Assembly: GCA_001800315.1 (NCBI GenBank)
Contig: MGVE01000007.1
Span: 62,001-126,000, forward strand
Source of the DNA: Elusimicrobia bacterium RIFOXYA2_FULL_47_53
GTDB taxonomy: Bacteria > Elusimicrobiota > Endomicrobiia > Endomicrobiales > XYA2-FULL-47-53
Direction: 5' to 3'
DNA length: 64,000 bases
The notes under the pieces were generated by a model that saw only the letters and a program-made list of their open reading frames with translations, had not been told where the DNA came from and ran no database searches. Positions 3,442 through 48,960 of this stretch are shown piece after piece. Position 1 is the first letter of the stretch; each line of letters begins with the position of its first letter. The translations under genes were made by a program, and so were the position numbers.

Positions 3442-4284
3442 TCAGATCTCAATATTGTCTATGAGCCTGGTTGCGCCGACTCTTACCGCCACGGCAATTA
3501 CCGCCGGAGCCTTCACGCGCTTAATCTCTTCAAGGTCCCGCGAGCCGCGCACTTCAACATATTCAATTTTAGCGCCCGGAATGGAGTTAAGCACCTTTAC
3601 AACCACGGCGCGGACGGCGGAAGCGCTGCGTATTTTTTTATCCTGAACGGATTTTCTGGCTTTTAAAAGCGCGGCCGATATTTTAACCGCTTCAAGCCGC
3701 TCCGCGTTACTGAGGAAAATATTTCTGCTTGAAAGCGCCAGCCCGCCTTTTTCCCTTACGGTTTCGCAGGGGGCTATTCTTACCGGGAAATTAAGGTCTG
3801 AGGCCATTTTCTTAAGTATGGCCAGCTGTTGAAAATCTTTCCTGCCGAAGTAAGCCGAGTCCGGCAAGGCAATATTAAAAAGCTTTGCCACTATGGTGGC
3901 AACTCCTTTGAAATGGCCCGGCCTGAAAGCCCCGCACAGGACATCCGAAAGTTTTTCTACCGAGATATAAGTGCGGTATCCGGAAGGATACATATCCCCG
4001 GGTTTGGGCGAAAACAGGTAATCCACGCCCGCGGCGGCGCAGAGAGATTTGTCTTTGAAAAAAGGCCTGGGATACTTAAGATAGTCCTCGTTGGGGCCGA
4101 ACTGTGCCGGGTTTACGAAAATTGACACTATTACTATGTCGTTTTCCGCGCGCGCTTTCCTGATGAGCGATAAATGCCCCTCATGCAGAGCGCCCATGGT
4201 CGGGACCAGGCCTATTTTAGCCCGCCTGCTTCTGTGAAGCTGAGAGGCCTTCTGCATTAGTTTTGGGGAGCTGATTATTTTCAT
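3442..4284 (-). CDS. panC: Pantothenate synthetase
   Basis: PanC joins pantoate and beta-alanine using ATP through a pantoyl-adenylate intermediate, the last step of vitamin B5 synthesis. At 280 residues it has the usual length. The nucleotidyltransferase signature is clear: GLVPTMGALHEGHLSLI near residue 26 (HxGH), FVNPAQF, the GRKDFQQ segment and the KMSKS-like LSSRN loop near residue 185. It lies 26 bases downstream of panB, so the two consecutive pathway enzymes are co-expressed. No panD or panE was found in the window, so beta-alanine and pantoate supply must be encoded elsewhere. Confidence 0.96.
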   Translation of the reverse strand: MKIISSPKLMQKASQLHRSRRAKIGLVPTMGALHEGHLSLIRKARAENDIVIVSIFVNPAQFGPNEDYLKYPRPFFKDKSLCAAAGVDYLFSPKPGDMYPSGYRTYISVEKLSDVLCGAFRPGHFKGVATIVAKLFNIALPDSAYFGRKDFQQLAILKKMASDLNFPVRIAPCETVREKGGLALSSRNIFLSNAERLEAVKISAALLKARKSVQDKKIRSASAVRAVVVKVLNSIPGAKIEYVEVRGSRDLEEIKRVKAPAVIAVAVRVGATRLIDNIEI

Positions 4285-4310
4285 AAAATCAGTTAGAAAA
4301 GCGAACAGGC

Positions 4311-5108
4311 TCAGTACGAGTATTCTTTGGAAGGAAACTTGCCGTCTTTAACTTCGTCTTTATATTTAGCAAAGGCCTCCAGCATCCTGGGCCTGAGGTT
4401 AGAATAACTTTTTACGAATTTGGGCTTTATTTCGGAATAAAGGCCGAGCATATCATCGGTCACCAGCACCTGCCCGCCGCAGAAAACTCCGGCGCCTATG
4501 CCGATAGTGGGTACCGAAACCGCTCTTGTTATCCTGGCCGCGAGTTTTGAAGGGATACATTCAAGCACTATCGCGAAAACCCCGGCTTTCTCCAGGGATT
4601 TAGCGTCCGCTATAAGCTTTGAGGCGTCGCGGCTGTTTTTGCCCTGCACCCTGTAACCGCCGAACTTGTTGACGGCCTGGGGAGTCAGCCCAATGTGGCC
4701 CATGACAGGGATTTTGGCGTCCGTCAGGGCTTTAATAACGGATGACATCTCTTTTCCGCCTTCAACTTTTACAGCCTCCGCCCCGCCTTCTTTAAGCAGT
4801 CGCCCCGCGTTAGAAATAGCTTCCCTTACGGAGAGCTCGTAGGACATAAACGGCATATCGGCGATAAGAAGAGCGGTTGAGTTGCCTCTTTTCACCGACT
4901 TTGTGTGATAAACCATATCGTCAATTGTAACAGGGAGCGTGTTTTCATAACCGAGTTTTACCATGCCGAGCGAATCGCCCACCAGAACGGCATCTATGCC
5001 GGCCTCGTTGAGAAGCCTGGCTGTTGAATAGTCGTAACAGGTCAGAAGCGTAATTTTCTCACCCCGTTTTTTCATTTCCTTAAAACTCAGCACGGTTATC
5101 TTTTTCAT
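4311..5108 (-). CDS. panB: 3-methyl-2-oxobutanoate hydroxymethyltransferase
   Basis: This is ketopantoate hydroxymethyltransferase, which transfers a hydroxymethyl group from methylene-tetrahydrofolate to alpha-ketoisovalerate. The 265-residue TIM barrel carries the family motifs [38 protein letters not shown] (metal-binding Asp), [25 protein letters not shown] and IGIGAG. An AAGGCG box precedes the ATG. It follows folK by nine bases and precedes panC. Placing a folate-cofactor-consuming enzyme next to the folate gene folK is a common bacterial arrangement. Confidence 0.97.
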
Positions 5109-5117
5109 ATATTCGCC

Positions 5118-5657
5118 TTATGATTTCTTCGCGCGGGCGCCGCGGTTCATCTTTGTGGCTTTCTGGTCCAGAGAGGTCTTTAAAAGCCCTGAAGCTATTT
5201 TTTTAACCGTCTCGCCGGTTACCGGATGAACAAAGCCCGGGGAGAGTTCGCTCACCGGCAGCATTACAAAAAGCCGTTTATGAGCCTCTTTGTGCGGCAC
5301 CGTGAGAATTTTGCTTTTTACTTTTCTGCCCCCGTAAAATATTATGTCCAGGTCTATCAGGCGCGGGCCCCACTTCGTGGTTTTTTTTCTGCCCATGGCG
5401 GCCTCAATGACCTTAAGCTCGGCAAGCAGTTCAACGGGTTTAAGCGTTGTCTTGATTTTTACCGCGCTGTTTATAAAATCCCTCTGGAAAGGCCCGACCG
5501 GCGAGGTAATATAGAAATGCGATTTCTCCAGAACCGTGATACGCGGATGCGAGCTCAGCAGGCTGATGGCTTCATCCATATTCTTAGACCTTTTGCCCAC
5601 ATTGGAGCCAAGGCCTATCAAAACCGTTTCGTTTGTATCAGGAAGTTTTTTTACCAT
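5118..5657 (-). CDS. folK: 6-hydroxymethyl-7,8-dihydropterin pyrophosphokinase
   Basis: FolK transfers pyrophosphate from ATP to the pterin in folate synthesis. The sequence shows the N-terminal IGLGSNVGKR motif, SPVGPFQRDFINSAV, and the catalytic block KWGPRLIDLDIIFYG near residues 98-111, followed by VPHKEAHKRLFVMLP. At 179 residues it is slightly longer than the family average because of a basic C-terminal tail (KMNRGARAKKS). The ATG overlaps the end of dapL by seven bases and has no obvious separate ribosome-binding site, so translation is probably coupled. No other folate gene is in the window. Confidence 0.93.
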   Translation of the reverse strand: MVKKLPDTNETVLIGLGSNVGKRSKNMDEAISLLSSHPRITVLEKSHFYITSPVGPFQRDFINSAVKIKTTLKPVELLAELKVIEAAMGRKKTTKWGPRLIDLDIIFYGGRKVKSKILTVPHKEAHKRLFVMLPVSELSPGFVHPVTGETVKKIASGLLKTSLDQKATKMNRGARAKKS

Positions 5658-11990: not shown

Positions 11991-14510
11991 ATGAAAAAAT
12001 TCTTCTCTTCCGACCTTCTTACTGCCACAGCCCTTACGCTTCTGACACTCGCCGCTTTTCTTCTTCAGCTTGGATTTTTTGAATCGCTTGAACTTAAAAC
12101 CTACGATCTGCGCTCCCTTTTGAGGCAGGGCACAAAACCCGCCGAACAGGTGGCCATAGTAGCCATAGATGACGACTCCATTTCAAAGATCGGCAGATGG
12201 CCCTGGCCGAGAACGCTGATTGCCCAGGGCATAACAGCTATTAAGAACGCCGAGGCAAAAGTGGTCGGGCTTAATATTCTTTTCACGGAACCCGAGCGCA
12301 ACCAGGGACTGATTGAAATAAGACAGTTAAAAGAAACTATCCCCCCGCTGATACCGAAGAAAAACCCTAAAAGCGTCACGGAAACCATTCTTACCCGGCT
12401 TTCAGAAGCAGAGGTGCGTTTAGACAACGACACCAAGCTTCAGGAAGCGTTAACCGCGGCGGGCAATGTTATTCTTCCCATGTACTTCAGCCTCGGCCAG
12501 TCTCTCGGCGAAGAGGACCCCGTGCTGGAGCAGTTCACTATCGTTCAGCTGGAAAATCCCGATGATGTAATGAAATATCCCGTAACTGAGGGCAGCACGC
12601 CGGCTGTTCCGCTGGAAATTTTCTCCGAGGCTTCCCCGGGAGTGGGCCATGTAAACCTGGTGCCGGACCGCGACGGCGTTGTCCGCTCCGAGCTTCCCAT
12701 AATGCAGTTCCAGGGAGACTACTACCTTTCTTTCCCGATTCAGGTTTTAAGGCAGTTTCTCAATGTCCCTGTTGAAGAAGTTAAACTCACCCTCGGAAAG
12801 GCGCTTGCCATAGGAAAAGCCACCGTGCCGATGGACGAAGAGGGCCGTTTCCTGATAAGCTATAACGGCCCGGCAGGAACCTTCCCCTACTACTCTTTCT
12901 ATGATGTAATTAACGGAAAGATAGACCCGGCGGCTTTAAAAAACAAGATAGTGTTGCTGGGCCATATGGCGACCGGCATAGCTGATTTAAATGTGACTCC
13001 GGCAGGCCACAATTTTCCCGGAGTGGAGATTACCGCCAATATTATTCAGAACATTCTTAACCAGAACTTTATATCAAGGCCCATATGGGCCTACAAAACC
13101 GAGCTCGGCGCGATAGTATTTATCGGCCTTTTCATTATGCTCGTCCTGCCCAGGCTTAAAGCGCTTCTCGGAGCCCTGATTTCATTTGTTCTGCTCGCGG
13201 CCATGGTTGCCGGCGGCACCTACCTGTTCGTTTCCTTCGGCTACTGGCTCAAGTTGTTTTACCCGTCTTTTCTTCTTGCCGCCGGCTACATTATTATCAC
13301 CTCAAAGCGGTTCCTCGTTACCGAAAAAAAGAAAGAGCTGGTTGAAGCCAGCGCTATTGAGACCAACAAAATGCTCGGCCTGTCATTTCAGGGCCAGGGC
13401 ATGCTTGATATGGCCTTTGACAAGTTCCGCAAGTGCCCGGTTGACGACCAGATGAAAGAGCTGCTTTACAACCTGGCGCTGGATTTTGAGAGAAAAAGGC
13501 AGTTCAACAAAGCGGCCGCTGTTTATGAACATATAATCAAGGTGGACCCGAAATATAAAGGCATTGACGAAAGAATAAAACAGCTTAAAGCCGCCTCGGA
13601 AGGGGCTGTATTCGGCGGCTCCATAGGCGGCAAAAAAGGCTCCGCTGAAGGCACGGTTATCATGGAAGGCTCAGGAGCCACCGCGCCGACCCTGGGCCGT
13701 TACGAGATAGTTAAAGAGCTCGGGCGCGGAGCCATGGGCACGGTGTATCTCGGCAAAGACCCGAAAATTAACCGTCAGGTGGCCATTAAGACCGTTCGTT
13801 TTGACGACGACATAGATGAAACCTCCATGAAAGCCGCGAAAGAAAGGTTTTTCCGCGAAGCAGAATCTGCCGGAGGCCTTAACCACCCCAACATAATAAA
13901 GATTTATGACGCGGGAGAGGATAACGAGGTTTCCTACATCGCCATGGAGCTTTTGGACGGAGAAGACCTCAAAAAATACGCCGACAAGGCCAACCTGCTC
14001 CCGATCCCCACCGTAATAGATTATGTGATAAAAATGGCTGACGCCCTTGATTACGCTCACCAGCAGGGCGTGGTGCACAGGGATATAAAACCCGCCAACA
14101 TCATGCTTTTAAAAGACGGCTCGCTGAGGCTCACCGACTTCGGCATTGCCAGGATAACCGCTTCTTCAAAAACACAGACCGGAACGGTTCTTGGAACCCC
14201 GAGCTATATGTCTCCCGAACAGCTCTCAGGCAAGAAAGTGGACGGCAAGAGCGACCTTTTCTCCCTCGGCGTTGTGCTCTACGAGCTTTTGACCGGCTCA
14301 AAACCTTTTGAGGGCGAAAGCATCGCGGAACTGATGTTTAAGATCGCCAATGAAAAACAGCCTGACCCTAAAACAAAAAATCCGAATATCCCCGATTGCG
14401 CGGTTAAAGTTATAGATAAGGCACTTGATAAAAATCCGGAGGCCAGGTATCAAAGAGGATCGGAAATCGTAAAAGATCTCCAGGAATGCCTGAAGTCCCT
14501 ACAAGGATAA
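11991..14510 (+). CDS. CHASE2-domain transmembrane Ser/Thr protein kinase
   Basis: This 839-residue receptor kinase starts with a membrane helix at about 9-28, followed by an extracytoplasmic CHASE2 sensor (about 30-350, with VAIDDDSISKIGRWPWPR near its start). Three close membrane helices lie at about 373-437, then a helical TPR-like stretch (about 443-530). The C-terminal Hanks-type kinase spans about 567-835. Kinase residues are intact: glycine loop GRGAMGTVYLG, catalytic Lys in VAIKTV, HRDIKPANIML, DFG and GTPSYMSPEQ. It should phosphorylate Ser/Thr in response to an external cue. The PP2C gene starts three bases later, followed by an FHA gene, giving writer, eraser and reader in one operon. 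This operon is the only plus-strand block here. Confidence 0.95.
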   Translation: MKKFFSSDLLTATALTLLTLAAFLLQLGFFESLELKTYDLRSLLRQGTKPAEQVAIVAIDDDSISKIGRWPWPRTLIAQGITAIKNAEAKVVGLNILFTEPERNQGLIEIRQLKETIPPLIPKKNPKSVTETILTRLSEAEVRLDNDTKLQEALTAAGNVILPMYFSLGQSLGEEDPVLEQFTIVQLENPDDVMKYPVTEGSTPAVPLEIFSEASPGVGHVNLVPDRDGVVRSELPIMQFQGDYYLSFPIQVLRQFLNVPVEEVKLTLGKALAIGKATVPMDEEGRFLISYNGPAGTFPYYSFYDVINGKIDPAALKNKIVLLGHMATGIADLNVTPAGHNFPGVEITANIIQNILNQNFISRPIWAYKTELGAIVFIGLFIMLVLPRLKALLGALISFVLLAAMVAGGTYLFVSFGYWLKLFYPSFLLAAGYIIITSKRFLVTEKKKELVEASAIETNKMLGLSFQGQGMLDMAFDKFRKCPVDDQMKELLYNLALDFERKRQFNKAAAVYEHIIKVDPKYKGIDERIKQLKAASEGAVFGGSIGGKKGSAEGTVIMEGSGATAPTLGRYEIVKELGRGAMGTVYLGKDPKINRQVAIKTVRFDDDIDETSMKAAKERFFREAESAGGLNHPNIIKIYDAGEDNEVSYIAMELLDGEDLKKYADKANLLPIPTVIDYVIKMADALDYAHQQGVVHRDIKPANIMLLKDGSLRLTDFGIARITASSKTQTGTVLGTPSYMSPEQLSGKKVDGKSDLFSLGVVLYELLTGSKPFEGESIAELMFKIANEKQPDPKTKNPNIPDCAVKVIDKALDKNPEARYQRGSEIVKDLQECLKSLQG

Positions 14511-36913: not shown

Positions 36914-37237
36914 CCAAAACAAAAGGAGCGCTGACAGTTTCCTGTACGCTCCTGCTTTTATCAAAATTTGGTGGAGCTGAGCAGCGACAAGCGCGGCGAA
37001 TAGGCCGCGCTGCGCCATGGAGCGGGCGAGCGTCGGCGCGAGCCCTGAACCGCCGACCTCTTTGCGGCGGTATCCCCAAAACAAAAGGAGCGCTGACAGT
37101 TTCCTGTACGCTCCCGCTTTTATCAAAATTTGGTGGAGCTGAGCAGCGACAGGCGCGGCGAATAGGCCGCGCTGCGACCTGGAGCGGGCGAGCGTCGGCG
37201 CGAGCCCTGAACCGCCGACCTCTTTGCGGCGGTATCC
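36914..37237. repeat. 162-bp tandem repeat derived from tRNA-Ala 3' end and terminator (two full copies)
   Basis: Copies at 36914-37075 and 37076-37237 differ at only four positions. A third, partial copy (37238-37307) merges into the tRNA-Ala gene. Read on the minus strand, each unit contains a 17-base piece of the tRNA (AAGAGGTCGGCGGTTCA), a GC-rich palindromic insert of about 63 bases, the tRNA 3' end (CTCAGCTCCACCA), and the same downstream terminator hairpin. The insert holds a perfect GCGCGGC/GCCGCGC stem (36991-37010 and 37153-37172). The units are thus tRNA 3' fragments interrupted in the T arm. Confidence 0.9.
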
Positions 37238-37239
37238 CC

Positions 37240-37276
37240 AAAACAAAAGGAGCGCTGACAGTTTCCTGTACGCTCC
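37240..37276 (-). terminator. Intrinsic terminator of the tRNA-Ala gene
   Basis: On the minus strand, a GGAGCG/CGCTCC stem with inner ACAG/CTGT pairing is followed by TTTTGTTTT, about 17 bases after the tRNA CCA. The same hairpin recurs in both tandem repeat copies downstream. Confidence 0.85.
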
Positions 37277-37292
37277 TGCTTTTATCAAAATT

Positions 37293-37368
37293 TGGTGGAG
37301 CTGAGCGGGATTGAACCGCCGACCTCTTCCTTGCCGAGGAAGCGCTCTCCCAGCTGAGCTACAGCCCC
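37293..37368 (-). tRNA. tRNA-Ala (anticodon GGC, with C33)
   Basis: The 76-base cloverleaf has encoded CCA. The acceptor stem GGGGCTG pairs with CAGCTCC and contains the G3-U70 wobble that specifies alanine. The D arm is GCTC/GAGC with GG in the loop, and the T loop is TTCAATC. The anticodon stem CTTCC/GGAAG is perfect, enclosing loop TCGGCAA. The anticodon GGC reads Ala GCC/GCU codons. Position 33 is C instead of the nearly universal U, which is unusual. The gene has its own promoter and terminator, and its 3' end seeds the adjacent tandem array. Confidence 0.93.
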
Positions 37369-37482: not shown

Positions 37483-38694
37483 TTACAGATACACCATGTC
37501 CTGGCTCTGGAAAACAGATAAAAACAAAAGCATATATTCTTTGAGATGCCGCGTCAGCAGATAATTGTTAAGTATATGATTTCTTCCGTTCTCCCCGAGC
37601 TTCTTGGCGTACTGAGGGTGATTGAGCAGCTGCTTAATATTGAATGCCGCGCCCTCAACCGTATTGCAGAGCATTCCTGAATACTTATGAGTTACCTGAA
37701 GCGGTATCCCTCCGACATTTGAGGCAACCACAGCCTTGCCCTTCCAGAGCGCTTCAGCGACAGTGAGGCCAAAACCTTCCTTGAGGGATTTCTGAAGCAC
37801 CACCGAAGACGCCCTCTGCAAGGCATTTACGGCTATGTCGTCCTGCGGAAGCATTAAAATATGAATATCCGGATCGCCTGCCGCCCGTTCCTGAACCTCA
37901 CTAAGCACCGCCAGCCCCTCGGGATCATCCGTCGCGGTCCCTCCCGCGAGCACCAGGCGGCAATCAATGTATTTTTTAACAAGTTTGTAAGCCTCAATAA
38001 CACCCACGGGGTCTTTAAGCCGGTCAAAACGCGAAATTTGAGTTATTATAGGCTTATCCCTGGGAACGGCATAATTATCAAGAACCGAGTTTATGGCCTC
38101 AGGGCTCAGTTCCTTATTCTTATCGCTTAAAGGATCAATGGAGGGAGCGATCAAAAACTGCCGTATTGGAAGTATCTGAGAGAATTTCTGCGACGAGAAT
38201 ACCGCCGCGTCATAATTTTTAATAAATCCGCTTAAAAACGACCACACCTCTTTGTCCGGATTTGAAACATCAATATGGCAGCGCCATATCCACTTGTTAG
38301 AACCCTTTTTTTCCACGAGAGCTATGGGCTGAGGATCATGAACAAACATAATATCGCTTGAAAGATTGGCCTCGGCCGCGTTTTTCCTGTTAGTTTCCAA
38401 AAACACCTCATAATCCGATTTCAGCAGCTGCTCCCGTTTGCCATGAAGGGCATTATGGAACTTCTTGGTTATTTCATAAAATTTTTTCCCGCCCTTAATG
38501 ACCTCCCAGCGCGTGTCAACTCCGAGCTCCTTTAAAAGCGGAACCATGCGGTTTAATATTTCAGCCACCCCGCCGCCGACCGCCGTTGAATTGTAATGGC
38601 AGACTTTCTTTCCGGCGAGCTTGCCCGCAAGCAGGCGCAGGTCATCAATCGTAGACTGGCCCACAATGGGAGTGTAATCGTCAATTTTGGCCAT
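37483..38694 (-). CDS. treT: Trehalose synthase TreT (GT4 family)
   Basis: This 403-residue GT-B glycosyltransferase closely matches the pattern of archaeal and bacterial TreT, which makes trehalose reversibly from an NDP-glucose and glucose. Landmarks are NSTAVGGGVAEILNRMVPLL near residue 35, KKFHNALHG, FVHDPQPIAL, WIWRCHIDVSNPD, APSIDPLSDKN, ITQISRFDRLKDPVGVIEAY and the donor-site EGFGLTVAEALWKGK. It is cytoplasmic. It lies six bases after the DUF5752 gene and is the last gene of the operon, so the cell appears to encode two routes to trehalose in one transcript. AAGGATG precedes the ATG. Confidence 0.9.
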   Translation of the reverse strand: MAKIDDYTPIVGQSTIDDLRLLAGKLAGKKVCHYNSTAVGGGVAEILNRMVPLLKELGVDTRWEVIKGGKKFYEITKKFHNALHGKREQLLKSDYEVFLETNRKNAAEANLSSDIMFVHDPQPIALVEKKGSNKWIWRCHIDVSNPDKEVWSFLSGFIKNYDAAVFSSQKFSQILPIRQFLIAPSIDPLSDKNKELSPEAINSVLDNYAVPRDKPIITQISRFDRLKDPVGVIEAYKLVKKYIDCRLVLAGGTATDDPEGLAVLSEVQERAAGDPDIHILMLPQDDIAVNALQRASSVVLQKSLKEGFGLTVAEALWKGKAVVASNVGGIPLQVTHKYSGMLCNTVEGAAFNIKQLLNHPQYAKKLGENGRNHILNNYLLTRHLKEYMLLFLSVFQSQDMVYL

Positions 38695-38699
38695 AATAA

Positions 38700-39365
38700 C
38701 TACATCCTTTTCTTTATCAGTTTAATTACCGTTCTTCTGAGATCCTCTAAGGCGTAAGTGTAAGGATCAAGCCTTGTTATCATGTCCGCGAGCTCTTTGT
38801 CTCCAATAGAATCCGCTATCCAGTTGGAAAAATCGTTAGACTCTTTTTCAAGCCTCAGGCGCGCCTCAAAAATATGGAAATATATGGAATTTATCGTTAT
38901 TTTTTCAAGAATCCGGGCGAACTCCGCAAGATTATTAGCCACATAGCTGGTCGGAATAATAAAACTGACCGACTTTAATAGCCAAAATTCCTTGCCGGGG
39001 TTCGCGCACCTGTCCGCCGCGTAAGAATTGGCGCTCATGTGTTCCTTCATGACTGAAACTATTTTTTCTCTTAAAGCGCGTATAGTTTTAAACTGAATAA
39101 TATCTATACTGGACAGCTTTTCGCTTAAAACATCGTCGCCGAGAGCTTCTTTCGCCCAAAACGCGAAATCATTAGGAGGTTCGGGCGACAGGTATTCATG
39201 CTGCTGAAGGAATTTGTGCGTGTGATGATATATGCAGGAACCCGGAACCTCCTGCAGGGCGGCAACCATCTCGTTTAAATTACAGATCCGGATGCCGGTT
39301 GATTCGGTCAAGTGCAGCCGCGTATAAAAGTGAAACGGCGCGTTAGCCACTACGGTAGCCTCCAT
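38700..39365 (-). CDS. DUF5752-family protein in trehalose operon
   Basis: This 221-residue soluble protein begins FHFYTRLHLTESTGIRICNL and contains VPGSCIYHHTHKFLQQHEYL and PPNDFAFWAKEALGDDVLSEKL. It then has a second, similar block (IYFHIFEARLRLEKESNDFSNWIADSIG) suggesting an internal duplication. I recognise it as DUF5752, a family of unknown function. The repeated His-rich/WI-IGD pattern could bind a ligand or a partner, but no catalytic motif is evident. It is translated between otsB (five bases upstream) and treT (five bases downstream), so a role in trehalose control or in a complex is plausible inference. AGAGGCGGG precedes the ATG. Confidence 0.8.
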   Translation of the reverse strand: MEATVVANAPFHFYTRLHLTESTGIRICNLNEMVAALQEVPGSCIYHHTHKFLQQHEYLSPEPPNDFAFWAKEALGDDVLSEKLSSIDIIQFKTIRALREKIVSVMKEHMSANSYAADRCANPGKEFWLLKSVSFIIPTSYVANNLAEFARILEKITINSIYFHIFEARLRLEKESNDFSNWIADSIGDKELADMITRLDPYTYALEDLRRTVIKLIKKRM

Positions 39366-39370
39366 GATTG

Positions 39371-40108
39371 TTACCCGCCTCTTTGAGCCGCAAGATTCGC
39401 GATTAACCTGTAAACTCCGCGCGTGTCTTTCACGCCAAACTCAGCGGCCGTGTCATGTTTTTCTCCCACATGAATAGTCAGCGCCGCGCCCCTCAAAGCC
39501 TTAAAAGCTTTTTCATCGGTAACATCATCGCCTACATATATCGGCAGAATCGTTTCCCCATGAAACAACTTTAAGATTATATAGAGCGCCGCCCTGCCTT
39601 TATCCCAGTTTACCGGAAGGCACACCTCAAACACTTTCTTGCCGGGCAGAATCTTAATCTTTGAAGCTCTCCTGAAGGGCTCAACCAGGTTTTTAAATAC
39701 GCTTACGGCCCTTTTTTTATCGGCGCCGCTTACAAGCCTGTAATGAAACGCCACCGACAACCCCTTATTCTCAATCAAAACGCCTTTGATTCCGAAGAGA
39801 GCCTTCCTCAGGCCCGCCAGAATACCGCGCAAAACGCGGGTTGAAGCGGAACTTTTGGCTATATTTAAATTTATTCCCGGGCCTTTTATCTCAAGGCCGT
39901 GGCTGCCGGCGTAAATTATATTTTTCAACCCGACTTTTTCGCGGAGATCCTTTATATCCCTGCCGCTTATTATAACTATTTTAAAATTCCTGTCGCGGGA
40001 CAGTTTCCTTAGAAGATCCCTGACGCGCGCGGGCATGAACGCCTTATGAGGAGCGTCCGCCAAAGGAGCCAGGGTCCCGTCAAAATCAAGAAATAGAACT
40101 GTTTTCAT
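39371..40108 (-). CDS. otsB: Trehalose-6-phosphate phosphatase
   Basis: This HAD-superfamily enzyme of 245 residues dephosphorylates trehalose-6-phosphate. Motif I is VLFLDFDGTLAPL at the N terminus, with KIVIISGR, YAGSHGLEIKGPG and the metal-binding motif IYVGDDVTDEKAFKAL near residue 200. I chose the ATG at 40108, which shares a base with the otsA stop (TGATG), has GGGAAG upstream and places motif I at the expected position. A longer in-frame start adds 17 residues from inside otsA. Coupling to otsA is therefore tight, as expected for consecutive enzymes. Confidence 0.95.
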   Translation of the reverse strand: MKTVLFLDFDGTLAPLADAPHKAFMPARVRDLLRKLSRDRNFKIVIISGRDIKDLREKVGLKNIIYAGSHGLEIKGPGINLNIAKSSASTRVLRGILAGLRKALFGIKGVLIENKGLSVAFHYRLVSGADKKRAVSVFKNLVEPFRRASKIKILPGKKVFEVCLPVNWDKGRAALYIILKLFHGETILPIYVGDDVTDEKAFKALRGAALTIHVGEKHDTAAEFGVKDTRGVYRLIANLAAQRGG

Positions 40109-42342
40109 CAGCTTCCCTTTTTCAACGAAGCTATTTCCGAGATAATATTTCCCGCCCAATGAAAAACATTGTTGTCGGAAACAATTTTATTCATATTGCT
40201 CATGCGGGCCTTTTTTTCCTCTTCGGGAATTTCAATAGCCAGTTTGATGGCGTCAGCGAACTTTTCGGTTGAATACGGGTTTATCTGCACGGCATCGGCC
40301 AATTCTCTCGCGGCCCCGGTAAAACAACTCAGCACCAGCATTCCGCTTGCCCCGTTTTTGGTGGCGACATATTCCTTGGCCACAAGGTTCATGCCGTCAT
40401 GAAGCGAACTTACGACACAGACATCGGCTATCGCGTAAAAAGGCTTGATCTCATCGCTTGAAAAGTGCTTTTTCATGTATATAATAGGTTTCCATGAGTT
40501 ATCCGAATGCTTCCAGTTCACTTTGTCAATCAATTCGTCAATCTCTCCCATCAAATCATGGTAGCGCTTTATATGGGTGCGGCTCGGGGCGGCTATCTGG
40601 ATAAACACGAACTTTCCAATGTACTGCGGATATTTCTCAAGAAAACGGTCAATCGCCTGAATTCTTTCCACTATGCCTTTTGTGTAGTCAATTCTTTCCA
40701 CTCCCAAACCGACTATTTTACCCTCCAGCTCATACTCTTTTCGTATCGCCTCCATGGATTCAAAATCAGAGGAAGCGGCCTCGTAAGAGTAGTTGTCCAC
40801 GCTTATCGGGAAAGCCCTGATGAAGGTCTCTTTATTGGCGCGCACAACGCTGAACTTCTCCGTGTCCACTCTGGACTCAAGAAGACGATTTGCCGTATCA
40901 AGGAAATTATTGCAGTGATACTGGACATGAAACCCTATAAGATCGCATCCCAGCATGCCGTCAAGAATTTCCTCCTGATAAGGACATATTGAGAAGACCT
41001 CGGGATTAGGCCAGGGTATATGCCAAAACAGCGCCACAATCGCGTCGGGCCGCTTCTCTTTTATCATTTTACCCAGCAGCGTGAAATGATAATCCTGAAT
41101 AAACACGAGGGGATTTTTTGCCGGAAGCTCTTCTAAAATGCTGTCCGCGTATTTCTGGTTCACTTTTTTATACATCTGCCAGTCAGTTTCCCTGAAAACA
41201 GGGCGCGTGTAAGTTATATGACACAGGGGCCAGAGGCCTTCATTGGAAAAACCATAATAAAAGCCTCTTTCCTCGTCCTTTGACAGCCAGGTGCGCTTGA
41301 GTATATAATGAATGTCGTCCGGGGGCACGCCGAGCTTGCCTTTTGAGTTTGCGAATTTTCTGTCGGCATTGCCGCTGCCCTGAGCCACCCACACGCCGCC
41401 GCAGGCCCGCATAACCGGATCAAGGGCGGTAACCACGCCGCTTGCCGGACGAACGCACCTGGGCTTGCCGGTTTTTTCATCAAGTACATGCATATACGGC
41501 TCTCTGTTAGACACAAGAAACAGAGAACTTTCTCCGAGCTTGGCGCGCACAAGGTCCTGGAGCCTTTTTTCAGTCCAGAGATCCCCGCTCTCAACGCGGT
41601 CTTGAGCCTCCCTGGACACGGTTCGCCGCGCGACGCGCAGTCCGAGAGCCACCTGTTCAACCTCTTTAGCGAGTTTTCCAAGATCTCCTATTTCTTCAAA
41701 GGAAAGCTGCTCGTCGGTTTCGCCCTTTTGAAAACGGGTAAACCACTCCGTGAGGCGCTGCACCGGCAGGACAAATATCTGGCGCTGCAGCGGCAGGGTA
41801 ACTATAATCATCAAAAAGACCAGAACAATCAAAGCTACGCTTATGCCTCTCCACTGTCTGGTAAGAATATTAAAAATATACGATGTATCGTAAACAACCT
41901 CAATAAGCCCTACTGTGTTTTCAGCACTGTCCAAAACCGGCAGCACATAACTGTACATGGAGTATTCTTTGTATTTCTCCATCCTTCCGCGAGCTTTTTG
42001 TGACCGGGCCACCGAGTCAATGTATGAATTGTCCTTCTGGCCCCAGTCGGCGATTCGTTCCGTCACCGCGAGGATCTTCCCCTCTTTTGAATATATTATA
42101 CAACCCTGCAGGCGCTCCCTTTTCTGAAACTTGTCCACCAGCAGCTGCGCGCTTCTAAGGTCGCTCTTTTCAAAAACATTTAGCGCGGAAAGCTCCATGC
42201 TTTCTGCTACATTTTTAGCCTTGCGCTCCAGATCATCCATGAGCCTTTCCTGCTGAAACCTCACCTGCAGCATTCCAAAACCGGCAAAAACGATTCCTAT
42301 TATTATTAGAATCGGAAGCATGAACAGCAGCACTCGTCTCAT
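40108..42342 (-). CDS. otsA: Trehalose-6-phosphate synthase fused to a membrane sensor/HAMP module
   Basis: The C-terminal portion (about 270-740) is a GT20 synthase joining UDP-glucose and glucose-6-phosphate: LVSNREPY, GGVWVAQGSGNAD, VFIQDYHFTLLGKMI, FWHIPWPNPEVF, GFHVQYHCNNFLD, GVERIDYTKGI and SLHDGMNLVAKEYVA. Ahead of it sit a membrane helix (about 4-26), an extracytoplasmic domain (about 27-160, with GCIIYSKEGKILAVTERI and a Cache/PAS-like pattern), a second membrane helix (about 165-187) and a HAMP linker (about 188-240). This is the layout of a chemoreceptor or histidine kinase with a biosynthetic enzyme in place of the kinase. It is the first gene of the trehalose operon, with GAGAGG before the ATG and a structured leader upstream. 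Confidence 0.93.
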   Translation of the reverse strand: MRRVLLFMLPILIIIGIVFAGFGMLQVRFQQERLMDDLERKAKNVAESMELSALNVFEKSDLRSAQLLVDKFQKRERLQGCIIYSKEGKILAVTERIADWGQKDNSYIDSVARSQKARGRMEKYKEYSMYSYVLPVLDSAENTVGLIEVVYDTSYIFNILTRQWRGISVALIVLVFLMIIVTLPLQRQIFVLPVQRLTEWFTRFQKGETDEQLSFEEIGDLGKLAKEVEQVALGLRVARRTVSREAQDRVESGDLWTEKRLQDLVRAKLGESSLFLVSNREPYMHVLDEKTGKPRCVRPASGVVTALDPVMRACGGVWVAQGSGNADRKFANSKGKLGVPPDDIHYILKRTWLSKDEERGFYYGFSNEGLWPLCHITYTRPVFRETDWQMYKKVNQKYADSILEELPAKNPLVFIQDYHFTLLGKMIKEKRPDAIVALFWHIPWPNPEVFSICPYQEEILDGMLGCDLIGFHVQYHCNNFLDTANRLLESRVDTEKFSVVRANKETFIRAFPISVDNYSYEAASSDFESMEAIRKEYELEGKIVGLGVERIDYTKGIVERIQAIDRFLEKYPQYIGKFVFIQIAAPSRTHIKRYHDLMGEIDELIDKVNWKHSDNSWKPIIYMKKHFSSDEIKPFYAIADVCVVSSLHDGMNLVAKEYVATKNGASGMLVLSCFTGAARELADAVQINPYSTEKFADAIKLAIEIPEEEKKARMSNMNKIVSDNNVFHWAGNIISEIASLKKGS

Positions 42343-42490
42343 TTATTACCTCTCAAAATAAAAAGCTGAAAACCAGGCTGTCCGGTTATCAGCTATAATA
42401 CTCATTGCTCTTCCCGGAAAATATATCCGGATGGCGGCCCGACCATCCAACCCTCCGGGGCAACTATACCCCGGACCCTTTTACAAAAGA
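42343..42490 (-). promoter_or_regulatory. Structured otsA leader, candidate attenuator or riboswitch
   Basis: Between the predicted promoter and the otsA ATG lie about 140 transcribed bases with nested hairpins. On the plus strand these are stem TCCGGGG/CCCCGGA (42454-42475), stem GGATGG/CCATCC (42429-42448), an alternative CCGGA/TCCGG (42414-42430) that shares bases with the second, and finally a terminator hairpin abutting the ribosome-binding site. The mutually exclusive stems plus a terminator suggest conditional control. It matches no riboswitch class I know; the ligand is unknown. Confidence 0.5.
42356..42393 (-). terminator. Terminator-like hairpin directly before otsA
   Basis: On the minus strand, a stem of GCTGA plus AACC pairs with GGTT plus TCAGC (one mismatch, nine-base loop). 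TTTTTATTTT follows, and the otsA Shine-Dalgarno box begins two bases later. There is no room for a promoter after it, so otsA transcripts must read through. Confidence 0.7.
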
Positions 42491-42544: not shown

Positions 42545-45500
42545 TTACCTCTCCAAAGCGAACTTAATTCTCGTGGTTCCTATAGGGCTTTTGACAAGCA
42601 TGACATATATGCCGCTGGCAACCTCAAGGCCGGACTCGTTCTTTCCATCCCAGGAAGAACGGCCGTTAGCCGCCGCGTAGTTCACACTCCTTACCAGGTC
42701 CCCTCCGATAGTAAATATTTTTATTTCCGCTTGAGCCGGCAGGTTTGATATAGTCATGCCTTCCGAGTGCTTCCTCGGATTATAGGGATTGGGGAATGTC
42801 CTGACCTTCTCCACATTTGTGCCGGGCGCCAACTGCAGTATCGCGAATAAACTCAGATGCCTGGGCCTTGCCACCACGCGCTTGCCCGTTGTATTGGCTA
42901 TTGACGGCAATACCACCCACCTGCGATTGGACTCATCATAGTATCCTATCACAAATTTAGACGCCTCAAAACCCAGAGCGTCCACATCATGATAATACAT
43001 CGTCAGGGAAAAATCCTTCCTCGGCTGCAGGGACTTGTCATTGGTGATATTTACCCCGACTTTGGTAGGAACTATCGTCTCGTCGTTTGAACCCGGCACC
43101 ACCGCCGTGGATACGGACAGCGTCACATCCGACTCAAAAGTGCCGGCCGGTATATCAACCAGCGCGTCGCAATGTTCGCCGTTAAACAGCAAGGCGCATT
43201 CCTTTGCGCTGTCTATCACGGCCGACGCAGTCACATTGTATTTCACTTCAAACCCGCCTGGCAGAACCGCGCTGAACACACCGCTTGTCACCGCCACATC
43301 CCAAACACCCTTCGCTTTGCCGGAAAGATCTATCCGGCAGGTAATTTTGTCGCTGGTTACCGCCACATTGTCCGCGGCTATGTCGCTTTCGCCGGATTTA
43401 CGCAATAAAATACTGCTGCCCTCAAGAAAACCCTGTCCGGAAACTGTGACATTCAAAACCGCACCGCTGTAGCTTGATGACGGCGCTATTGAATGAACCT
43501 CCATTCCCTTTACCTCAAAACCACCGCTAAGCCTTGATGAAAACGCGCCGCTCGCGACAACTACATCCCAATATCCCGTGGCCTTTAGCGTTAAATCAAA
43601 CCTGCAGGTTATTTTGTTGCCGCTCACCACAGATACATTCGTCCCAGCTATATCGCTTTCCCCGAACTTTGACAACTTTACCGTTGAACCAGCAAAAAAA
43701 CCTGTGCCGCCCAAATCCGTTACAGCAACTTCACCGTAATTATATGCCGCCGAAGGCGACACAGAACCTACCGACCAGCCCCCGGACTTTATCTCAAATA
43801 CACCAGTAGCCGAATTTGTCAGTGCGCCGCTCGTTATCACAATATCCCAAAAACCCACCGCCTTACCGGATAGATCCAGCTCGCAGGTTATCTTACTGGA
43901 ATTGACAACATTTACATTCGTCGCAAAAGTATCCGGCTGACCGGATTTTGACAACTTTACCGCTGAACCTGCAAGAAAATTTTCTCCGGTCAAATCACTA
44001 ATTATTACTCCGCCGTTTTCAAAGCCGTAGCCAGGCGTTACCGACAACACTCTCCACAGCCTTCTTACATTTACCGAGCCCTTAAGCTCGCTTCGGTATG
44101 ATCCGCTGGTCACCGCAACCGTCCAGTACCCGGGCGCCGCGCCGGAAGATAAGTTTATATTAAATGTTATCCGGCTTGAACTTGCAACGCTGACATTTGT
44201 CGCCGCCGTCGTACTCCCGTCTACAGAAGCATTGAACATGCTTGCCTGTGCTCCGGCAGGAAAACCCGCACCGCTTAGCGTTATACCCACAGTACCGGTG
44301 CTGAATACCGCGCCTGGCGACACGCCGGATATCATATAATTTAACGACGGCGCGCTTGAAGTGGAAGAAACATACTCAACCGCGCCCACATCAGATACCG
44401 CGGCGCGCTCAACATTATTAACATCAATCGGAACCCTGGAGGGAAAACGATTTATCAGCACGGAACCATCCAGCGGATAACCGAATTTTGACGAGAGATA
44501 ATCCGTATCCAACACGCCATAATCCTTGGAATATGTGGCAGGAGAACCGGAATCGGGCCTTTTTGAACCCCACAGAGGGCAAGGCCAGCCACTTTCCACA
44601 TAAACAGCATTCCTGTAGTGATCGGCTGTCTCTTTATAAATCTGATTAAAATGGTTATGCAAAAATTCATTATTGCTCGTGTTGCCCGGCTCGGCCGAGG
44701 GGATAGTTGGGACTCCAACAGCGCTTTCCTGACTCACATAAGCATCAAAAATATTGCCGACAAAAGAAGAATTCGTATAAGTTCCATACATTCCTCCGCA
44801 ATGACCTATAAATGTGCAGTTCCACATTATCAGATGGTCCCATGAATGATAAAAACTGTGAGGCCCAAAGGAATAAAGATTTGACTCATTTCTCATCGGC
44901 GGCTCTCTCATTTCTATAAAAACATTCACAAAAGCGTTGTCGGTCGCCTGTCCGTAGTCAGATCTCGCGAATATTCCCTGATAATGTATATCGGTTGCCT
45001 TAAAGTTATATATAATCCGGTTATTGGCTGGTGGCGAGTTTGCGTCAAGTGAAAATACCTGATAGGCGTCGGCATGAAGGCCGGTGGAATTAACCTGTCC
45101 CATAGAAGTCGCGTTTATTACCATGGCGGTATTCTGGAATGAATCAACGCCAACCTGCACAAGCTCGGCTCCGCGCACAAGCGCGGCCCTGCGGTATCCA
45201 TAGTCCGCATCAAATATGTAATCACCCGTGCTATAATGATTATCGGAACTGTGGTTAACGGGGTTGGAATTAACAATATCGTAGCCGGAACCTATTCTCC
45301 TGCAGTTATTCGTCCACAGGCGCGTCGCGCTGTCATTGGCGACATAAAGCCCGCTTCCACGGCTCTGCAGAGTAACGCTGTCGTACTTAAGATAACCGGT
45401 TGAGAACAAGCCTGTATTTATTATAACATTGTTCCTGTTTGCCGACTGATCCTTAGCTATAGTAAGCCACTCGTTAGTGGTTGACGCGGAAATTCCGGAA

Positions 45501-46066
45501 ACGGAATATGTCCCCTCTTTGAGATAAATAACCGCCCCGTTTGAATTGCCGCCGTTAGCCGCCTGAATCTTAGTTTTGGCAGTGGAAATGGTCTTAAATG
45601 GCAGGGAAGAGTTATTAACCGCTCCGGTCGTGTCGTCTCCGGACGGACTGACCCATGCGGACACGGGAGTAAACGCGCTCGCCCCCTCGGCTATCATTGA
45701 AAGCGAAAGATTCCGCTTATTGCCGTTATTGTCCTTTGCCTGAGCGTAAATGGTCACCGCGCCGTTAGAAGTAAATTCGGAAGCGGGAAATGATGCCCAA
45801 TACTCCCATACGCCGGTCTGATCGTTGAGCGACATTGCCGTCACTGTCTTTGTCCCGCTCGCGTATCCCTGGCCTGAGGCCCAGAAATCCACTCTCTCAA
45901 TACCCGGTTTTGAGAAAGCCACTACGCCAACCTTAAAGGACTGCCCGAATTTTATTCTCTGGTAGGGCACGACATCAAACCTCGCCACGGGCTGAAAGGC
46001 CAGCAGAATACCGGAAGAAAAAAACACAGAAAACAATAAAACCCAAACAAACCGCTTTTTAATCAT
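42545..46066 (-). CDS. Secreted beta-helix/IPT-repeat protein with FlgD-like C-terminal tail
   Basis: This 1173-residue exported protein has a signal peptide (about 1-24) and an Ig-like segment. A right-handed parallel beta-helix follows (about 140-560), opening WVSPSGDDTTGAVNNSSLPF and TISTAKTKIQAANGGNSNGA, as in surface pectate-lyase-like proteins. Residues about 575-950 hold four similar IPT/TIG units of about 90 residues (e.g. GTGFFAGSTVKLSKFGESDI, GQGFLEGSSILLRKSGESDI). Next is a beta-rich domain (about 960-1085) and a FlgD-Ig tail (TFPNPYNPRKHSEG, WDGKNESGLEVASGIYVML). No catalytic residues of a polysaccharide lyase are clear. It shares its tail type with the 2344-residue protein at 17142-24176 and is co-transcribed with a GH9-family glycosidase. 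Confidence 0.85.
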   Translation of the reverse strand: MIKKRFVWVLLFSVFFSSGILLAFQPVARFDVVPYQRIKFGQSFKVGVVAFSKPGIERVDFWASGQGYASGTKTVTAMSLNDQTGVWEYWASFPASEFTSNGAVTIYAQAKDNNGNKRNLSLSMIAEGASAFTPVSAWVSPSGDDTTGAVNNSSLPFKTISTAKTKIQAANGGNSNGAVIYLKEGTYSVSGISASTTNEWLTIAKDQSANRNNVIINTGLFSTGYLKYDSVTLQSRGSGLYVANDSATRLWTNNCRRIGSGYDIVNSNPVNHSSDNHYSTGDYIFDADYGYRRAALVRGAELVQVGVDSFQNTAMVINATSMGQVNSTGLHADAYQVFSLDANSPPANNRIIYNFKATDIHYQGIFARSDYGQATDNAFVNVFIEMREPPMRNESNLYSFGPHSFYHSWDHLIMWNCTFIGHCGGMYGTYTNSSFVGNIFDAYVSQESAVGVPTIPSAEPGNTSNNEFLHNHFNQIYKETADHYRNAVYVESGWPCPLWGSKRPDSGSPATYSKDYGVLDTDYLSSKFGYPLDGSVLINRFPSRVPIDVNNVERAAVSDVGAVEYVSSTSSAPSLNYMISGVSPGAVFSTGTVGITLSGAGFPAGAQASMFNASVDGSTTAATNVSVASSSRITFNINLSSGAAPGYWTVAVTSGSYRSELKGSVNVRRLWRVLSVTPGYGFENGGVIISDLTGENFLAGSAVKLSKSGQPDTFATNVNVVNSSKITCELDLSGKAVGFWDIVITSGALTNSATGVFEIKSGGWSVGSVSPSAAYNYGEVAVTDLGGTGFFAGSTVKLSKFGESDIAGTNVSVVSGNKITCRFDLTLKATGYWDVVVASGAFSSRLSGGFEVKGMEVHSIAPSSSYSGAVLNVTVSGQGFLEGSSILLRKSGESDIAADNVAVTSDKITCRIDLSGKAKGVWDVAVTSGVFSAVLPGGFEVKYNVTASAVIDSAKECALLFNGEHCDALVDIPAGTFESDVTLSVSTAVVPGSNDETIVPTKVGVNITNDKSLQPRKDFSLTMYYHDVDALGFEASKFVIGYYDESNRRWVVLPSIANTTGKRVVARPRHLSLFAILQLAPGTNVEKVRTFPNPYNPRKHSEGMTISNLPAQAEIKIFTIGGDLVRSVNYAAANGRSSWDGKNESGLEVASGIYVMLVKSPIGTTRIKFALER

Positions 46067-46087: not shown

Positions 46088-48565
46088 TTAATAGCTTCCG
46101 AAGTAAATATCCTTTGAGTAAGAGCCGTTTTCGCCGAATTCAACTCTTACAAGGAGCGGCATTCCCCCTTTTGGAACCGCTGTCAGGCTCAGCCTGCCCT
46201 TTGAAACGATCTCCGAACTTTTATCCGCGAGCTCTCCGCCTTTGATAAAAACCTTAAAAGGCAAAGACTCAAGGCTTTTATCAAGCTTTAAGTCAATTTT
46301 AAAGGGCCGGCCGGCAGCTATTTTTTTGGGAACCGATACTGAAATCATACTTTTTTCTCCGCCTGCCAAGCGCTCACCCTCAATTTCAGAGAGTAAAAGC
46401 AGGTAAGCGGCGTTATGAGGCAGCCAGTCCTCGCCGCTTGAAGTGCCCTCGCCCCACCATTGAGGCTCGTCATTTGGCCCGCTTCCGACAATGCCGTTAG
46501 GTATTATGCCGTTAAGTTTCGGTTTATCAAAATATTCCGCCATTATTTCAGGATTATTGCTCCCGGCGCCCAGCAGCATGCAGTAGTCAAGCGGATTTAC
46601 ACCCAGCACCCAGTTGATCTGGTTATCCGCAAAATCATAAAGCTCGCGGTCTTTTAAAAGCGCCGCGGACTTAAGCGCGACATACGCAAGCCCGAGATGG
46701 TCGCAGTTTAGCCCATGATTTGCCGCGGCAGCCTGCTCGGCCTCGGGGCCGGCGAAATAATTCTGTTTGAAAAACAGTTTATCGCCTTGGGCCATTTCAA
46801 GCCCGCAGGAGACCTGTCTGTAAGGCGTTTTGGAAGCCATATTTTTGAGATAGTTCTTCGCAAAAACCGAACACGCGTAATAGCAGTCCAGCCACTGCGG
46901 GTCATCTTTTGGAAGTATATCGCAGAGGTTAAGCAGGGCGAGGTTTATCGCAATGTTAAATGAAACATATTTGTACCTGAACAGGAAATCGCGGTTTTCG
47001 TCCGATCTGAAGAAATCGCCGCAGGCTCCGTTCTCAAAGCTGTCAAAATCTTTTGCCTGCAGGGCGAGCAGTTTAGGCAGCAGCTCGCCGACCCTGGAAA
47101 TATATTTTTTGTCATTAGTGTATTTGTACAGCTCGCTTGAGGCCCAAAGATAAGCACCGTAATCCCTTGACTCCCGCAAAGCAACGGTATTAAGCCAATC
47201 CCAGGCCTTGAAAGCCGTTTTCTCCGCCGCAGACGCAAGCTCCGGCCTGGCCGCTCTGACCTGTTTTGCGCCGCTTAAAAGAGCCGGTATGTTAAACGCC
47301 GTGGAAAAAAGGTTCTTGTCTTTATATTTTATCCGAGACAAATCATCGTCCTCGGGACGAAGCGGGTTTATCCTTGCGATGAACTGCTCGTGAGTCATAT
47401 ATTTTGTAAAATCCGCTTCTATTCCGCCCCAGCTTACCGTGCCGTCAGGCTCAGCGACGGCATTGACAAACTCAAGGCCCCATATCAGCTCTTCCAAATC
47501 ATCCGCGACGCCGTTACCTTCGGAATCCGCGTGATTCAGTCCGCCGCGGTTGTACTCGGCCATGGCAAAAACAAGTGACGGGAGTGACCACATCCTTTTG
47601 CTTATGTCAAAAAGGGTATCGTGATACCCGCCCATAACAGGGTCTTTCTTGTGGCAGCGTATGCCGCAGCGCTGATATTTAAGGTAGTTGAGTTCAAGCG
47701 GGATTGTATTTGAATAGACCCTGCTGCCTATCTCAAAAGCGTACGAATCCTTTTCATACTCGCGGCCGCCGGCTTTGAGTACAATATGCAGTTTGTACCG
47801 GCCCGGAGCGGTCAGGGCCGAAAAATCGCCGGAGAGATAACTGCCGCGCCAGTCGCTGAATTTTTCGTTTATCAACCCTGATTTGAATATCGGAGTACCG
47901 TCCGCGGAAAAGACAATAAACTCTCCCCTTAAAGGCGATTCAGGGGATACTCCGTCTAATCTTACGACAAAGCGCTTGGAAGCCTGCGGAAGATAGCCCG
48001 CCTGATTGATATTTACGGTTATGCCGGGTTCCTCCGGCAGTTTCTCGCTGTATCCGAACTCGTCAATTTCCAGAAAACCGCGGCGCGGAGCGCCTCTGCT
48101 GAGAGCCATATAGAATGATATTATCCTGTCAAGCTTCTGGTCTCCGCCCCAGAGGTAGTGGCAGTCGCCGGCCTTTAAAGAATATGATTTCCAGCTTTCC
48201 GCGGAAATATCCGAGATAGGAATTTTTTTGCCGTATACAGAACCGTCGGCGTCAACGAACTTAAGCTCCAGTATTGACCCCTTGGCGTCGCCTTTCATGT
48301 GCCACCTGAATTCGCCGGCTTTTCCGAAATCAATCTCAGCGGCGCGGCCCACCTCAACATAGTGATCGTTCCTCAAATCATAATCCAGGCGCAGGGCTAC
48401 TCCGCCCGCGAAACCCGCGGCGCTTGAGAGCTCTACCGACGCCCGGGGCGCGGAGTTGACCGAGAAAACCGACTTGTCCTGGAAGTTTTCAATGATTTTT
48501 TCTGAAGAGAATGCAACCGGCGGCAGGAACAACAAGGCAAGGAAAATTTTCAGAACCCTGATCAT
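46088..48565 (-). CDS. Secreted glycoside hydrolase family 9-like protein
   Basis: This exported enzyme of about 825 residues has a signal peptide (IRVLKIFLALLFLPPVAFS), an N-terminal jelly-roll/CBM-like domain (about 20-180), and a cellulase N-terminal Ig domain (about 185-280, with VNINQAGYLPQASKRFVV). A GH9 (alpha/alpha)6 domain spans about 290-735. C-terminal GH9 signatures are NWVLGVNPLDYCMLLGAG and GEDWLPHNAAYLLLLSEIEG, with the likely acid Glu. The canonical DAGD motif is altered: GGYHDTLFD keeps the first Asp but not the second in place. A short beta domain ends the protein. AAGGAGG six bases before the ATG at 48565 sets the start. It is a candidate beta-glucan or glycosaminoglycan-type hydrolase. 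Confidence 0.82.
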   Translation of the reverse strand: MIRVLKIFLALLFLPPVAFSSEKIIENFQDKSVFSVNSAPRASVELSSAAGFAGGVALRLDYDLRNDHYVEVGRAAEIDFGKAGEFRWHMKGDAKGSILELKFVDADGSVYGKKIPISDISAESWKSYSLKAGDCHYLWGGDQKLDRIISFYMALSRGAPRRGFLEIDEFGYSEKLPEEPGITVNINQAGYLPQASKRFVVRLDGVSPESPLRGEFIVFSADGTPIFKSGLINEKFSDWRGSYLSGDFSALTAPGRYKLHIVLKAGGREYEKDSYAFEIGSRVYSNTIPLELNYLKYQRCGIRCHKKDPVMGGYHDTLFDISKRMWSLPSLVFAMAEYNRGGLNHADSEGNGVADDLEELIWGLEFVNAVAEPDGTVSWGGIEADFTKYMTHEQFIARINPLRPEDDDLSRIKYKDKNLFSTAFNIPALLSGAKQVRAARPELASAAEKTAFKAWDWLNTVALRESRDYGAYLWASSELYKYTNDKKYISRVGELLPKLLALQAKDFDSFENGACGDFFRSDENRDFLFRYKYVSFNIAINLALLNLCDILPKDDPQWLDCYYACSVFAKNYLKNMASKTPYRQVSCGLEMAQGDKLFFKQNYFAGPEAEQAAAANHGLNCDHLGLAYVALKSAALLKDRELYDFADNQINWVLGVNPLDYCMLLGAGSNNPEIMAEYFDKPKLNGIIPNGIVGSGPNDEPQWWGEGTSSGEDWLPHNAAYLLLLSEIEGERLAGGEKSMISVSVPKKIAAGRPFKIDLKLDKSLESLPFKVFIKGGELADKSSEIVSKGRLSLTAVPKGGMPLLVRVEFGENGSYSKDIYFGSY

Positions 48566-48582
48566 AAAGCCCTCCTTGGACA

Positions 48583-48960
48583 TCAGGCTTTTTGCTTATT
48601 TTCAAGAACTTCCTTGACCTTTTTTATAACTCTTTCGGACACAAAAGGCTTAACGACATATCCGCGCACGCCTAAATGATACGCAGCGTCCACATTACCC
48701 ATAAGATCATTTTCGGTGCACATAATGACCGGTATGTCTTCTGTTTTAGGAGAGGATTTAAGGCTTTGCAGAAGCTGAAACCCGTTCATGCGGGGCATAT
48801 TTACATCCATCATCACCAGGTCCGGATTAAACTTCCTGACTTTCTCCAGGCCCTCAAGGCCGTCAAAAGCGCACTTAACCTCGTAATTCTGGCCCTCCAG
48901 CAGATGTTTAAGAAGCTCACTGATGCTCCTGTCGTCTTCAACAATAAGTATTTTTTTCAT
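48583..48960 (-). CDS. Receiver-only response regulator
   Basis: This 125-residue CheY-like protein is a receiver domain alone: KKILIVEDDRSISELLKHLL, phosphoacceptor Asp in DLVMMDVNMPRMNG near residue 53, VIMCTEN, and the Lys in GYVVKPFVSERVI. I placed the start at the ATG preceded by AGAGG, three bases after the kinase TAG; a longer in-frame start lies inside the kinase gene. With no output domain it must act through protein contacts. It is the likely partner of the upstream histidine kinase and is followed at once by the GH9 gene. Confidence 0.94.
   Translation of the reverse strand: MKKILIVEDDRSISELLKHLLEGQNYEVKCAFDGLEGLEKVRKFNPDLVMMDVNMPRMNGFQLLQSLKSSPKTEDIPVIMCTENDLMGNVDAAYHLGVRGYVVKPFVSERVIKKVKEVLENKQKA

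Follow-up and report, generated by a model that had tools for sequence, protein, structure and literature searches.

Does the trehalose-6-phosphate synthase (TPS) gene of this Elusimicrobia genome truly encode an enzyme fused to a receptor-like membrane sensor and, if so, what may such a sensor do for an osmolyte synthase? The DNA analysed here is a stretch of 64,000 nucleotides from contig MGVE01000007.1 (hereafter the window). An earlier note, made from the sequence alone, had proposed that a GT20 enzyme stands there behind two membrane helices, an extracytoplasmic Cache/PAS-like domain and a HAMP linker. An open reading frame with a GT20 domain (E 7e-119) is indeed found at this place, and hydrophobic helices lie at residues 4-22 and about 159-187, as the note anticipated. 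The protein is organised as follows:

40108..42342, minus strand: sensor-fused TPS gene (ORF of 744 aa plus stop, ATG start)
42265..42333, minus strand: TM1, residues 4-26 (hydropathy; helix 2-59 in the AF2 model)
41863..42261, minus strand: extracytoplasmic single-Cache/PAS-like domain, residues 28-160 (WalK profile, Foldseek and VIA matches)
41782..41859, minus strand: TM2, residues 162-187 (hydropathy; N-terminal alignment)
41629..41781, minus strand: divergent HAMP domain, residues 188-238 (hhalign; Af1503 HAMP profile)
41527..41628, minus strand: signalling helix/linker, residues 239-272
40123..41526, minus strand: GT20 catalytic domain, residues 273-740 (PF00982)

The enzymatic part is unambiguous. 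PF00982 covers residues 274-738 (398 bits against a Pfam cut-off of 32.5), and GT20 is the sole output domain, the Pfam search having detected no MCP signalling or HisKA/HATPase domain in the TPS. Eleven donor/acceptor-site residues of OtsA (R9, G22, Y76, W85, D130, H154, R262, K267, R300, D361 and E369), read from a reference sequence verified against PDB entries, are invariant in 108 of 108 aligned family members and intact in the window TPS. With 419.6 bits against a curated equivalog cut-off of 564.85 (NCBIfam TIGR02400), the window protein is, as judged from its sequence, a GT20 TPS-like enzyme rather than an OtsA equivalog. Identity as a glucosylglycerol-phosphate synthase was considered and rejected, that model scoring 313 bits versus 420 for OtsA and a trehalose-phosphatase (TPP) gene adjoining; these same two points support trehalose-6-phosphate as the predicted product of the enzyme, and trehalose would be the product of the pathway.

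The sensor region is more divergent. Of the proposed domains, the Pfam search returned GT20 above cut-off; PF00672 (HAMP) gave no match in the window protein, the best value among the scanned family members being E 0.012 with none shown above cut-off, and the sCache model PF17203 remained sub-threshold (16.3 bits versus a cut-off of 28.4). Profile, profile-profile and AF2-based matches together show that the N-terminal fold equals the WalK input module, HAMP included: (i), NCBIfam histidine-kinase models match the N-terminus, with WalK covering residues 4-246 (E 1.2e-7). (ii), a profile of 38 N-terminal sequences, compared with PDB sequences, matches the WalK extracellular domain at residues 31-163 (E 4.5e-6) and also, weakly and at the correct position, the HAMPs of Af1503 (E 0.06), Aer and Tsr. 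(iii), an AF2 monomer model of residues 1-273 (pLDDT 78) runs from a long TM1 helix through a five-strand Cache/PAS-like core into a TM2 that is continuous with HAMP helix 1, followed by a connector and HAMP helix 2 (helices at 154-205 and 220-251); the structure that it resembles most is full-length WalK (Foldseek E 3e-11; VIA Z 17.6 over 268 residues, rmsd 7.8), the isolated WalK domain aligns with a VIA Z of 15.5 over 135 residues (rmsd 2.2), and KinD and CitA are also among the Foldseek/VIA matches of the Cache region. (iv), hhalign paired the predicted HAMP with 14 genuine HAMPs encoded by this genome at 94% probability (E 9e-8) and in the correct register, as against less than 3% for each of three control segments. 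The hallmarks of a HAMP are also present: the region directly follows TM2, starts with a proline, has a glycine after the first of its two helices, and contains four invariant residues (P193, W200, G207 and E227). In the Cache domain, no ligand-binding motif of a known type was recognised. The architecture described in the earlier note holds up; to call it exactly the input module of a chemoreceptor or histidine kinase is fair in structural terms, although both HAMP and Cache are divergent and score below Pfam cut-offs.

The full fusion turned up in whole-genome surveys of three phyla. Within the window's own phylum, about 64 of 340 genomes carry it; among Omnitrophota the count is at least 90 of 384, and among Margulisbacteria it is 6 of 74. 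The possibility that the N-terminal region was joined by assembly error or by chance, raised in the earlier note, is excluded because the fusion is conserved in more than 150 genomes. The other survey matches consist mainly of soluble proteins (about 490 aa, starting at about residue 252-257 of the window protein), of shortened forms, of longer proteins matching GT20 only and of fragments at contig ends. A GTDB contig scan also yielded 14 relatives from Omnitrophota and Margulisbacteria/WOR-1, nearly all full-length at 61-69% identity. No relatives were confirmed on viral contigs. Among plasmid records, none reaches 80% query coverage, and the best two are sensorless or single-TM relatives. 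One plasmid-borne TPS of the same subfamily, from Aminobacter (L076, 3782-5596; 47% identity), is anchored by one N-terminal TM and shows no match to the Cache/HAMP region.

In a GT20-domain tree built with FastTree from 109 proteins, all TM-bearing members fall into one clade (79 rows, support 96) and 28 soluble members stand apart. Inside the sensor clade are TM-HAMP forms devoid of Cache (L118, L119, L121, L129, L131 and L137), Cache-less forms with two TMs and a HAMP (L120, L122 and L133) and one soluble form (L102). The simplest reading is that the sensor fusion was gained once and that Cache was then lost repeatedly, nearly always leaving TM-HAMP behind. The nine examined homologues without Cache keep the TM and HAMP region, so that Cache input is dispensable in those proteins. 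The window protein groups with L003, from its own order, within a clade otherwise dominated by Omnitrophota, a placement that suggests horizontal transfer. Nine close pairs gave dN/dS values of 0.03-0.22 for TM1 plus Cache, 0-0.09 for TM2, HAMP and linker (one value was not computable) and 0.02-0.11 for GT20. These low ratios indicate that the sensor is maintained and that the constraint on the HAMP equals that on the enzyme.

Three genes follow the TPS on the same strand:

39371..40108, minus strand: trehalose-phosphatase, TPP (PF02358 E 6e-38; TIGR00685 above cut-off)
38700..39365, minus strand: DUF5752 protein (PF19027 E 5e-67), 5 nt after TPP
37483..38694, minus strand: TreT-like trehalose glycosyltransferring synthase, GT4 (PF21269 E 2e-55), 5 nt after DUF5752

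The TPP start codon and the TPS stop codon overlap by 1 nt (TGATG). The TreT-like protein matches the NCBIfam TreT model at E 8e-111, yet lies under the model cut-off. All clade-1 loci of sufficient length have the order TPS-TPP-DUF5752-TreT, as do most loci of the second clade and many loci with a soluble TPS; this operon type is common to the sensor-fusion clade and its soluble sister forms. TPS/TPP and TreT in one operon imply two trehalose routes, one OtsAB-like and one TreT-like. Neither this four-gene operon nor the soluble sister forms appeared in the earlier note, which also lacked the riboswitch described below. DUF5752 is a frequent member between TPP and TreT in the three phyla, and a literature search found no mention of it. 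In L087, overlapping ORFs that by eye resemble a HAMP-GGDEF protein (4018-5303, minus strand) are inserted between TPP and DUF5752. The surroundings of the window operon have features of their own: just downstream, a tandem direct repeat (36914-37306; 162-bp unit, copies 98-100% identical) runs into a tRNA gene (37296-37368, minus strand), and upstream, on the same strand as TPS, lie genes for a secreted-looking protein of 1173 aa with weak TIG/FlgD-type matches (42545-46066) and for a GH9 cellulase-like protein (46088-48583).

A clue to the regulation of the operon is found in its leader, where an aptamer ends 86 nt before the TPS start codon; the genome contains exactly two such RNAs above threshold:

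42429..42478, minus strand: nhaA-I (Li+-I/Na+-II class) riboswitch aptamer (RF03057, 48 bits, gathering 37, E 2e-7)
L154 (own genome, C12) 1501-1548, minus strand: second nhaA-I RNA, preceding an ORF for an MscS mechanosensitive channel (120-1172)

A sigma-70 scan upstream of TPS found no sense-strand promoter above threshold, and a TATAAT is present at 42496-42491, 12 nt before the aptamer. A terminator-like match at 42450-42427 was discarded, being the P2 stem of the riboswitch itself. Within GGUCGGGCC, 29 of 32 nhaA-I copies (the window copy among them) have U and two have C. An nhaA-I RNA lies upstream, in sense, at 28 of the 55 sensor-TPS loci scanned (window included) and at 4 further divergent sensor forms; it is found at 0 of 9 Cache-less TM-HAMP forms and 3 of 29 soluble forms. 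The difference between sensor and soluble forms (28/55 versus 3/29, Fisher p 3e-4) is descriptive only, since relatedness and the sampling of top-scoring loci are uncorrected. At some loci the RNA stands about 1.1-1.3 kb upstream of TPS with one gene in between: MscS (L015, L060 and L071), an Na+/H+ exchanger (L037, with a protein similar by sequence in L041), DUF1646 (L047) or an Na/Ca exchanger (L050). Two loci are peculiar: L072 carries two tandem nhaA-I riboswitches (730-789 and 873-924) upstream of its sensor-TPS gene, and L015 has a second nhaA-I RNA (12679-12731) directly after TreT and, behind it, a series of very short ORFs, possibly for one-helix membrane peptides.

In the work of White et al. 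2022 (PMC9646797), nhaA-I RNAs were shown to sense Li+ and variants to sense Na+; the authors also noted that a TPS gene occasionally accompanies them, perhaps for a response to Li+ or to Na+/osmotic conditions. The MscS, Na+/H+ exchanger, DUF1646 and Na/Ca exchanger neighbours favour the osmotic reading of this link, and the sequence context as a whole supports a probable ionic/osmotic control of the trehalose operon. The ion riboswitch, together with the neighbouring MscS and antiporter genes, reinforces the osmolyte context suggested by the earlier note.

How may the two layers of control work together? We propose, with slightly more confidence than doubt, a membrane-anchored and probably dimeric TPS in which GT20 replaces the kinase behind TM-Cache-TM-HAMP, the riboswitch setting expression and an outside cue setting activity. 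In this scheme the riboswitch would respond to higher cytoplasmic Na+ (or Li+) by turning expression on. GT20 activity would then be set by the extracytoplasmic Cache domain, its signal passing along TM2, the HAMP and the signalling helix, such that trehalose would be made only with an outside cue tied to osmotic or ionic stress. That an external cue switches a trehalose-6-phosphate synthase through Cache-TM-HAMP and dispenses with a phosphorelay, with an Na+/Li+ riboswitch setting the amount of enzyme, and does so in at least three phyla of uncultured bacteria, we consider an even call. That an external signal gates the enzyme, as the earlier note had predicted, is plausible; we infer an extracytoplasmic cue that activates rather than inhibits, and signalling to GT20 through a HAMP dimer. 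A receptor-like sensor combined with an ion riboswitch would probably place trehalose production under dual salt/osmotic control.

The repeated loss of Cache with retention of TM-HAMP leaves two rivals to this scheme. TM-HAMP could simply keep the synthase membrane-bound and dimeric, for example beside a channel or transporter, with Cache as a relic or spacer and no gating at all, an arrangement that finds support in the Aminobacter relative, which is anchored by one TM and lacks any match to Cache or HAMP. We hold this to be possible but doubtful: most members keep Cache under purifying selection, and the HAMP is retained under a stronger constraint than a simple anchor requires. TM-HAMP could instead read membrane tension or cytoplasmic ionic strength itself, with Cache as a modulator. 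Osmosensing at the TM-HAMP level has been argued for some histidine kinases (EnvZ), TM-HAMP is the part conserved upon Cache loss, and the riboswitch and MscS context points to ions and turgor; however, the usual ligands of Cache domains are small molecules, and we regard this second possibility as rather unlikely. Finally, a receptor-like build with an enzymatic output recalls the receptor cyclases, and trehalose-6-phosphate might, like their cAMP, be a second messenger made on stimulation. This appears highly improbable, the overlap of TPP with the TPS stop codon and the presence of TreT in the operon favouring bulk trehalose synthesis.

Receptor input modules are known ahead of kinases, cyclases, phosphatases and chemotaxis outputs. 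A receptor module in front of an osmolyte-making enzyme would provide an osmotic response in one protein, with no relay. Full-text literature searches, in which subscription journals are little covered, found no receptor module on a TPS; nothing relevant came up either for TPS joined to HAMP or sensor domains or for HAMP with glycosyltransferase outputs. Each of the parts is known; the literature searched contained no case of their combination, in which an osmolyte synthase directly carries a receptor input module. The proteins themselves must already be in public databases, probably under the name TPS.

Comparison with known systems makes clear what is shared and what is not. Adjacency of trehalose synthesis genes and an MscS channel is also a feature of the Thermoproteus tenax trehalose operon (TPSP, GT and MscS); to our knowledge, its synthase bears no receptor module. 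Like OtsA-type synthases (E. coli OtsA, 1GZ5/1UQT; OtsA, 5JIJ), the window protein has a full-length GT20 domain, the catalytic and substrate residues checked and a partner TPP gene; unlike them, it has a TM-Cache-TM-HAMP input module in front and stays below the equivalog cut-off (420 versus 565 bits). With WalK/YycG-type sensor histidine kinases it shares the order and fold of the N-terminus, whereas its output is a glycosyltransferase in place of the kinase domain and no partner response regulator is seen in the operon. The operon is also relevant to a puzzle in the riboswitch literature, namely why Li+-I/nhaA-I riboswitches precede TPS genes: the MscS, Na+/H+ exchanger and DUF1646 partners hint at Na+/osmotic stress. 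The RNA belongs to the same Rfam family as those placed upstream of TPS genes in PMC9646797, and the link with TPS was already known; the accessible text of that paper describes neither the sensor fusion nor the operon, whereas in the loci scanned here the RNA and TPS often occur together, across phyla and with MscS and antiporter partners.
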